DNA of 64,000 bases from Deltaproteobacteria bacterium (GTDB lineage Bacteria; Desulfobacterota; BSN033; UBA1163): the NCBI GenBank assembly GCA_016875195.1, contig VGRY01000011.1, forward strand, positions 1 to 64,000, given 5' to 3'. The translations under genes were made by a program, and so were the position numbers. The notes under the pieces were generated by a model. That model did not search any database. It was not told the origin of the DNA and saw only the letters and a program-made list of their open reading frames with translations. Of the stretch, positions 28,471 to 29,700 are shown in pieces (positions within the stretch are counted from its first letter, which is position 1; every line of letters begins with the position of its first letter).

Positions 28471-28498
28471 TTGACATGCCTGCTGTTTCTTGTATTGT
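28471..28498 (+). promoter_or_regulatory. Sigma-70 promoter of candidate small RNA
   Basis: A perfect TTGACA (28471-28476), a 16-nt spacer and TATTGT (28493-28498) form one of the better promoters in the window. It has no coding sequence immediately downstream. Confidence 0.55.
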
Positions 28499-28504
28499 CC
28501 AAAC

Positions 28505-28628
28505 AATTTTCTTGCTTTTAAGGATCAATTGGCTTATAAAGAGTTAACAAAATAAGTTGAACAGAGCCTTATCGGCTTATCGTCTATGCCCGCAAGAACT
28601 CTAAACGACTTCTTTGCGGGCTTTTTTT
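28505..28628 (+). ncRNA. Candidate small noncoding RNA (about 124 nt)
   Basis: A consensus-type promoter and a strong intrinsic terminator bracket a 90-nt interval with no plausible ORF. This is the usual layout of a stand-alone bacterial sRNA. The body holds an A/T-rich unpaired stretch (AGTTAACAAAATAAGTTGAA) and the short direct repeat CTTATCGGCTTATCG before the terminator stem. It lies about 280 nt upstream of two genes for RRM RNA-binding proteins. No known RNA family was recognised. A leader RNA with readthrough into the RRM genes is an alternative. Confidence 0.5.
28588..28628 (+). terminator. Strong rho-independent terminator
   Basis: GCCCGCAA-GAA pairs with TTC-TTTGCGGGC, leaving a loop around CTCTAAACGAC, and is followed by seven T residues. 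No coding gene ends just upstream. Confidence 0.85.
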
Positions 28629-28736
28629 CAGCATAAGAGCTGATATTTGCTTATTAATCAGTCCAAAGTTGTATAGACACGGAATCTAAATCTTTCCTCT
28701 GTTCCCTTTACCAAAGGGAGGAATGGCCTCGCTTAT

Positions 28737-28783
28737 AACCCCCCTCTATTCCCCCCTTAAATTAAGGGGGGAGGAAGGGGGGT
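28737..28783. repeat. CCCCCCTTA/TAAGGGGGG palindrome, copy 2
   Basis: Nearly identical to 21720-21767, with a TTAAATTAA centre. It lies between the sRNA candidate and the first RRM gene. Confidence 0.75.
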
Positions 28784-28912
28784 TACGGGAGACTTTCCGA
28801 AGAGCATGTCTTTTCAGTTATGGACTCCTTAATAATTAGGAATAACTACCCCGTCATTCCCGCTGCGAGAAATGTGGGACCAACAGGGTAAACTCAAGAA
28901 AGGAGAACGATG

Positions 28913-29215
28913 ATGAATATTTATGTGGGGAATTTATCCTATGAGGCAACCGATGCGACGATCCGGGAGGCTTTCGAATCCTTCGGCGAGGTAACGTCAG
29001 CGAAAGTGATCAAAGACAAGTACACTGGCCAGTCGCGGGGATTCGGTTTTGTAGAAATGCCCGCACCGGCTCAGGCTCAAGCAGCCATTAAAAGCCTTAA
29101 CGGAAAAGACCTTCTGGGCAAACCGATCAGCGTGAATGAGGCCCGTCCCCGTGCCGACCAGGGAAAAACCGGGGGAGGGCGGATGGGTTATAGTGGTCGA
29201 GGTAAACGTTATTAA
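28913..29215 (+). CDS. RRM-type RNA-binding protein
   Basis: A single RNA recognition motif fills the first 80 residues. RNP2 is IYVGNL and RNP1 is SRGFGFVEM, both with the aromatic side chains that stack on RNA bases. The tail is short and Gly/Arg-rich (GRMGYSGRGKRY), as in bacterial glycine-rich RRM proteins linked to cold response. AGGAGA (28901-28906) suits ATG 28913 better than the adjacent ATG 28910. The gene leads a run with a zinc-ribbon protein and a second RRM protein, and the sRNA candidate lies upstream. Confidence 0.88.
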   Translation: MNIYVGNLSYEATDATIREAFESFGEVTSAKVIKDKYTGQSRGFGFVEMPAPAQAQAAIKSLNGKDLLGKPISVNEARPRADQGKTGGGRMGYSGRGKRY

Positions 29216-29244: not shown

Positions 29245-29412
29245 ATGTTACAGCGAAGAAGACAAGGAAGGTCTCATGCTTCAAGGTCAAATCCTCTGAG
29301 GCATCGAAAATCTTACAAAGTTTTGTGTTCGGGCTGCGGGAAAGAGGTTGTTCTCCCCGTTCCCCCGCCGACTGACAAAAAACTACTGTGTATGGAGTGC
29401 TTCAGGAAATAG
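29245..29412 (+). CDS. Small zinc-ribbon protein (CxxC-x17-CxxC type)
   Basis: This 55-residue frame is missing from the ORF track. A basic N-terminus (LQRRRQGRSHASRS) is followed by VLCSGCGKEV and LLCMECFRK, two CxxC pairs 17 residues apart that should bind one zinc ion. AGAGGTTAAACC precedes ATG 29245. It sits between two RRM genes with short spacers, so a role in nucleic-acid or ribosome binding alongside them is likely. Similar ribbons are found near cold-shock and DEAD-box genes in other bacteria. Confidence 0.7.
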   Translation: MLQRRRQGRSHASRSNPLRHRKSYKVLCSGCGKEVVLPVPPPTDKKLLCMECFRK

Positions 29413-29433: not shown

Positions 29434-29700
29434 ATGAATAAGAAGGTTTACGTAGCCAACCTCCCTTCCCAGGCCAGCGAACTGGAGCTCAAAACCCTGT
29501 TCTCGAAAGCTGGAGATGTCGTATCTGTCAAGATTGTAGCGGACAGGCAAACCGGGCAACCGAGAGGCATTGCCTTCGTTGAGATGTCAACACAATGGGA
29601 AGCTCGGAGAGCTGTCTCCATGCTGAACCGAACGGATTTCATGGGAAAACACTTGCTGGTTAAAGAAGCAACCGTCAAACGTGGTTTTCGGGAGAAATAG
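29434..29700 (+). CDS. Second RRM-type RNA-binding protein
   Basis: RNP2 is VYVANLP and RNP1 is PRGIAFVEM. In RNP1 the first aromatic residue (GFGF in the neighbour) is replaced by Ile-Ala, so RNA stacking may be weaker or differently tuned. The protein is 88 residues with a basic tail (KRGFREK). It ends 20 bp before the convergent CorC-type gene. The two RRM proteins and the zinc ribbon probably share a transcript. Confidence 0.85.
   Translation: MNKKVYVANLPSQASELELKTLFSKAGDVVSVKIVADRQTGQPRGIAFVEMSTQWEARRAVSMLNRTDFMGKHLLVKEATVKRGFREK

Follow-up and report, generated by a model that had tools for sequence, protein, structure and literature searches.

The window, the whole stretch of DNA that was analyzed, comprises 64,000 nucleotides from the 4.08 Mb assembly of a Deltaproteobacteria bacterium. 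It contains an operon for two RRM-type RNA-binding proteins, preceded by a short structured RNA with a promoter and a terminator. The features of the locus are as follows.

28512-28540, + strand: conserved sigma70-type promoter, with the -35 element TTGCTT at 28512-28517, a 17-nt spacer and the -10 element TATAAA at 28535-28540
28547-28628, + strand: leader RNA, the putative attenuated transcript of about 80 nt, from the covariance-model match and the fold
28554-28566, + strand: 5' box AAGUUG-aac-AGAG, nearly invariant in the columns of the relatives' alignment and complementary to the terminator loop
28565-28577, + strand: small hairpin AGCC-UUAUC-GGCU, visible in the sequence and an alternative to the pairing of the 5' box with the loop
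28588-28628, + strand: intrinsic terminator, with the stem at 28588-28598/28610-28621, the conserved loop CUCUAAACGAC at 28599-28609 and a T run at 28622-28628
28910-29215, + strand: RRM protein gene 1, the first controlled gene on the proposed reading (Pfam PF00076 RRM_1, 83 bits; NCBIfam NF058537 Rbp_regulator, above cut-off)
29245-29412, + strand: small treble-clef zinc finger protein gene of the same operon (Pfam PF23477 zf_Tbcl_2, 33.7 bits)
29434-29700, + strand: RRM protein gene 2 (Pfam PF00076, 75 bits)

The original prediction had placed a candidate small RNA upstream of two RRM genes. Pfam RRM_1 confirms both genes (E 1e-23 and 4e-21), which begin 281 and 805 nt downstream of the terminator. 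They are the only RRM genes in this genome, which also has two csp genes, one of them with the leader. RRM proteins were present in only 2 of 14 control genomes, and a zf_Tbcl_2-type gene adjoins the RRM genes in many relatives too. A 76-bp palindromic intergenic repeat at 28725-28800 (AACCCCCCTC..GAGGAAGGGGGGTT) separates the leader from the first RRM gene; the genome has about 40 copies of it, of which the one at C6:9737-9812 is identical. Rfam matches at 28724-28798 were due to this repeat and were not assigned to the leader RNA. Close relatives have a small ORF where the window has the repeat. A small basic ORF of about 45-86 aa lies between the leader and the RRM gene in L009-L014 (20-280 nt past the leader in L013, for example) and was not found in the window. 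Positions 36-125, at the extreme start of the window, matched a group II intron domain (RF00029, 46.5 bits).

The transcript had been expected to start from a TTGACA-16-TATTGT promoter and to measure about 124 nt. The site exists at 28471-28498 (+) but is unconserved. BLAST alignments to relatives start at query positions 62-72, equivalent to 28501-28511, and TTGACA-type sites in the surrounding 5 kb were not above chance (2 found vs. 5.9 expected in shuffles). Since its sequence is not kept in relatives, the site was rejected and is probably not the promoter of the leader RNA. Homology starts instead at the conserved promoter about 40 nt downstream, where the relatives have TTGCTT or TTGACA, a 17-nt spacer and TATAAT at the same position and spacing in the alignment. 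Automatic scoring gave a promoter site with at least 8 of 12 matches in 61 of 71 leader copies, mostly with a spacer of 17; the TTGCTT-17-TATAAA of the window was not the scorer's choice and was read from the alignment. The position of the -10 element puts the 5' end of the RNA at about 28547, and from this corrected start a length of about 80 nt is expected.

The strong intrinsic terminator that had been predicted is present, with its stem spanning 28588-28621. It was missed by the automatic scan because its 11-nt loop exceeds the limit of the scan. The fold of 28547-28628 has a free energy of -24.8 kcal/mol (z = -4.4), and none of 200 shuffles was as good. A covariance model built from relatives matched 28552-28628 with 94 bits (E 1e-17). 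Conservation between 28505 and 28628, on which the small RNA candidate had been made to depend, was thus seen in both the covariance model and the relatives. The small hairpin appears in relatives as AGCCU-UUU-AGGCU or GUCC-UUUUUA-GGAC and is missing from some copies. When Rfam 15 was searched, no family overlapped the RNA at 28547-28628 at E<=5.

Two covariance models were employed to find the element elsewhere, R1 built from 27 copies and the broader R2 from 51. The searches detected it in 20 of the 23 genomes of the class and in 28 of 395 genomes sampled across the phylum, a lower bound set by strict filters, and in five families. About 73 places in related genomes matched the leader model; the named relatives are uncultured Syntrophaceae, Deltaproteobacteria and Thermodesulfobacteriota genomes. 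The genome of the window has three copies, one before the RRM operon described here, one before csp (C16:58340-58416) and one before rpoD (C17:10569-10649). In an alignment of 74 sequences, 10 of the 11 modelled pairs of the terminator stem showed changes on both sides, with 99 two-sided cells vs. 25 in shuffles (0 of 500 shuffles as high), although this alignment leans towards the modelled structure because it was fitted to it. The unfitted alignment of 27 sequences gave 12 two-sided cells vs. 1.7 for the terminator and box:loop helices combined. On this sequence evidence, the existence of the leader family and its regulon can be held with high confidence.

The possibility was considered that the element is a mobile repeat. 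This was rejected because the copies diverge widely in sequence yet retain the pairing and the gene context. A phage or plasmid origin was likewise rejected, as no match was found in phage and plasmid collections or in viral contigs. Exact-pattern matches in Rufibacter, Paenibacillus and Pedobacter were dropped because the remainder of the element is absent there. No description of the leader element was found in the open-access literature.

The genes that follow the leader were tallied by hand from the neighbourhood listing of 73 copies, with representative proteins checked by Pfam. In 62 copies a gene of one of five types follows on the same strand: RRM (24), CspA-type (17), RpoD (11), a slipin/lipoprotein pair (8) and DEAD-box helicase (2). 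The order of promoter, terminator and first gene is the one expected of an attenuator. Of the remaining 11 copies, two have an unknown gene downstream and then csp and a DEAD-box gene, two have other small genes and seven have no recognized gene, several of these seven being near contig ends. The distance from leader to gene is 59-68 nt for 26 csp genes, 6-222 nt for rpoD and 24-300 nt for most RRM genes. Class-wide, the leader was found at that csp spacing before 26 of 73 csp domains and within 1.5 kb of 27 of 61 RRM domains. Downstream of six rpoD copies (L127, L111, L112, L125, L115 and L117) an RRM gene follows rpoD about 1.74 kb past the leader, an unusual neighbourhood for rpoD. Copies without the usual genes were seen at L012:4105-4181, L023:512-586 and L025:4021-4099; these orphans are possibly decayed operons or truly free RNAs.

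The association with gene type was also evaluated on weak matches, namely those with E 0.001-0.1 in the 23 class genomes after removal of matches antisense to another listed match (n = 24). Twenty of these were followed after 64-124 nt by a csp or RRM domain, one lay upstream of rpoD in the genome of the window (the C17 copy) and one upstream of a DEAD-box helicase. The last two lay directly before csp genes but on the other strand, where they overlap the csp leaders as mirror images such as palindromic terminators produce. In total, 22 of 24 had a csp, RRM, rpoD or DEAD-box gene directly downstream. This result is held out by locus and not by gene type, since R2 had been trained in part on csp leaders from other classes and on a few copies from this one.

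The terminator loop, CUCU-AAA-CGAC, complements the 5' box AAGUUG..AGAG. Over 71 copies, the box:loop duplex had a mean energy of -7.6 kcal/mol vs. -3.7 with shuffled boxes, and the complementarity reached p<0.05 in 45 of the 71, a test made non-independent by close relatives. When transcripts ending just before the 3' arm of the terminator were folded, the mean number of expected box:loop pairs was 5.6 vs. 2.2 with a shuffled box, and for the nascent transcript of the window it was 5.0 vs. 1.2. Two-sided changes that preserve the pairing are few, being seen in a csp copy (L149) and in the rpoD copy of the same genome as the window, where box and loop are both altered and 7 pairs are retained (UGCUUGG/UUAAGCA). 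The GAG:CUC pairs of the box:loop helix are invariant and most other changes are one-sided, so that the conservation of box and loop could also reflect protein binding. On the folding calculations, the box:loop pairing likely forms an antiterminator. Antitermination would need kinetics or a helper because the terminator (-18 kcal/mol) is far stronger than the box:loop helix (about -8 kcal/mol).

In csp copies the box is, in addition, complementary to a segment between the terminator and the ribosome-binding site. At least 9 of 10 pairs were found in 27 of 35 copies, where 2 were expected, and the pairing is maintained through sequence changes, for example AUAAGGUGCC/GGCAUCUUAU vs. GUAAGUUGUA/UACAACUUAC. 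The csp leader in the genome of the window (L160:1360-1470) has the box GUAGGUUGUAA, which is fully complementary, with G-U pairs allowed, to UUACAACUUAC, a segment immediately preceding the ribosome-binding site of csp. In non-csp copies, including the RRM leader of the window, pairing of the box with the region after the terminator was not above shuffles. Third-segment pairing is not claimed for the RRM leader of the window, from which the segment is absent. A TPP riboswitch (RF00059, 66.9 bits, L160:1861-1974) lies about 160 nt downstream of the stop codon of the same csp gene.

Taken together, we consider, with a probability of roughly 0.7, that the RNA acts in cis as a transcription attenuator in the leader of the RRM operon and belongs to a family shared by RNA-chaperone genes (RRM, CspA-type and DEAD-box) and rpoD. 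The cis reading follows from the position of the copies, which share the strand of the coding genes directly after them, and from the common function of the products of those genes. The original prediction had mentioned, as an alternative, that the RRM genes could be the target of the RNA; this is supported, with the action in cis. Against the attenuator reading stand the palindromic repeat that intervenes before the RRM gene in the window, the csp copies L107 and L146-L148, which kept the box without complementarity to the loop, the orphan copies in L012, L023 and L025, and the csp and RRM genes of the class without a detected leader.

Attenuation would, with good probability according to the folding models, operate through box:loop antitermination. 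Transcription would start near 28547, and in the emerging RNA the 5' box would pair with the future terminator loop to give the antiterminator form. As the 3' arm emerged, the stronger terminator hairpin would displace this form and transcription would stop at about 28628; were the terminator not to form, the polymerase would read through into the RRM operon. The antiterminator may last long enough for readthrough at low temperature or when RNA chaperones run short. Ample Csp, RRM or helicase activity would melt the antiterminator, allowing the terminator to form and expression to drop. The net effect would be to hold the cold-shock/RNA-chaperone regulon near a set point. The gene list of Csp, RRM and DEAD-box proteins points to such a regulon; sensing of cold or of chaperones by the leader, which is deduced only from the target genes, is a reasoned guess with about even chances. 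More tentative is the idea that the leader class senses free RNA-chaperone activity and jointly governs how much RRM, Csp, DEAD-box and RpoD protein is available, with the third segment of the csp copies making a three-way switch.

The original prediction of a free-standing small RNA with its own promoter and terminator, working with the RRM proteins, holds as to a conserved structured RNA associated with RRM genes and is not supported as to its independence and its partnership with these proteins. It is very improbable that the RNA is a free-standing sRNA gene that lies beside the RRM genes by chance and base-pairs with other mRNAs. The RNA does have its own promoter, a strong terminator and no ORF, and in the window the RRM start codon is 281 nt away; however, homologues lie on the same strand as the genes they precede, with a constant spacing of 59-68 nt to csp domains and gaps as short as 6-31 nt to the start codons of rpoD and RRM genes, and the genes that follow differ. 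Whereas a trans-acting sRNA would be independent of the downstream gene, the association with gene classes and the fixed spacing bind this RNA to what it precedes. The terminated 80-nt product of the leader might also act in trans as a sponge for RRM or Csp proteins through its single-stranded box and loop, one decoy per operon. Several copies per genome, a nearly invariant loop (CUCUAAAC(G/A)AC), the location beside genes for RNA-binding proteins and the orphan copies in L012, L023 and L025 are consistent with a sponge, but the csp, rpoD and RRM copies have differing loops and the box:loop pairing explains the conservation equally well, which makes this additional role unlikely.

A riboswitch-like leader, responding to a dedicated small-molecule ligand or to an unknown protein and not to temperature or chaperone supply, would share the terminator with alternative pairing, and would suit the presence of rpoD and slipin among the targets, which are not classical cold-shock genes. 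However, the RNA measures only about 80 nt and lacks a compact aptamer-like domain between its box and its terminator, RNA chaperones make up most of the target genes and no Rfam riboswitch matched, so that this reading is improbable, somewhat more so than the sponge.

The E. coli cspA leader has a cold box at its extreme 5' end. The present leader resembles it and its Rfam model RF01766 in being the 5' leader of a cold-shock gene with a conserved box at the 5' end and alternative structures, but its sequence is different, it ends in an intrinsic terminator and it is found before RRM, DEAD-box and rpoD genes as well. The csp leader of this genome, searched alone, gave no RF01766 match at E<=5, and the RF01766 match in the same genome was traced to the csp coding part, which gave 78.5 of the 78.6 bits. 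To our knowledge, no Csp-responsive terminator with such a box-loop arrangement is common to a regulon. E. coli CspA acts on its own mRNA, and the cspA mRNA is a thermosensor (PMC9947658). In B. subtilis, the 5' UTRs of cspB and cspC contain cold shock boxes, and mutations in or near a box raise cspC expression (PMC8307031). They too are csp leaders with boxes inside, but are Firmicute sequences. The Csps of B. subtilis alter readthrough at several terminators: they favoured termination at the man and lia operons, whereas the trend at pyr was reversed (PMC8307031). E. coli Csp proteins are reported as transcription antiterminators in work cited by the same paper. Cyanobacterial rbp genes, which encode RRM proteins, have conserved cold-response boxes in the 5' UTR, and Rbp1 is needed for growth in the cold (PMC9333190). 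The likeness there is that of RRM genes with leader boxes, and the present family differs in that one leader is common to RRM, csp, DEAD-box and rpoD genes.

The sharing of a single leader among these four kinds of gene is new here. Work on how bacteria measure and balance their supply of RNA chaperones has centred on E. coli and B. subtilis and on individual genes; here one element of about 80 nt recurs before RRM, cold-shock, RNA-helicase and rpoD genes of Desulfobacterota-type bacteria, most of which are uncultured. From sequence alone, the element defines a regulon and links RRM proteins to a circuit of the cold-shock type; the supply of RNA chaperones is probably adjusted by this single RNA device. 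The leader is also compact enough for the effects of Csp or RRM proteins, or of temperature, on termination to be tested in vitro. If the joint control of chaperones and RpoD is true, the capacity for RNA folding would be coupled directly to the capacity for transcription.
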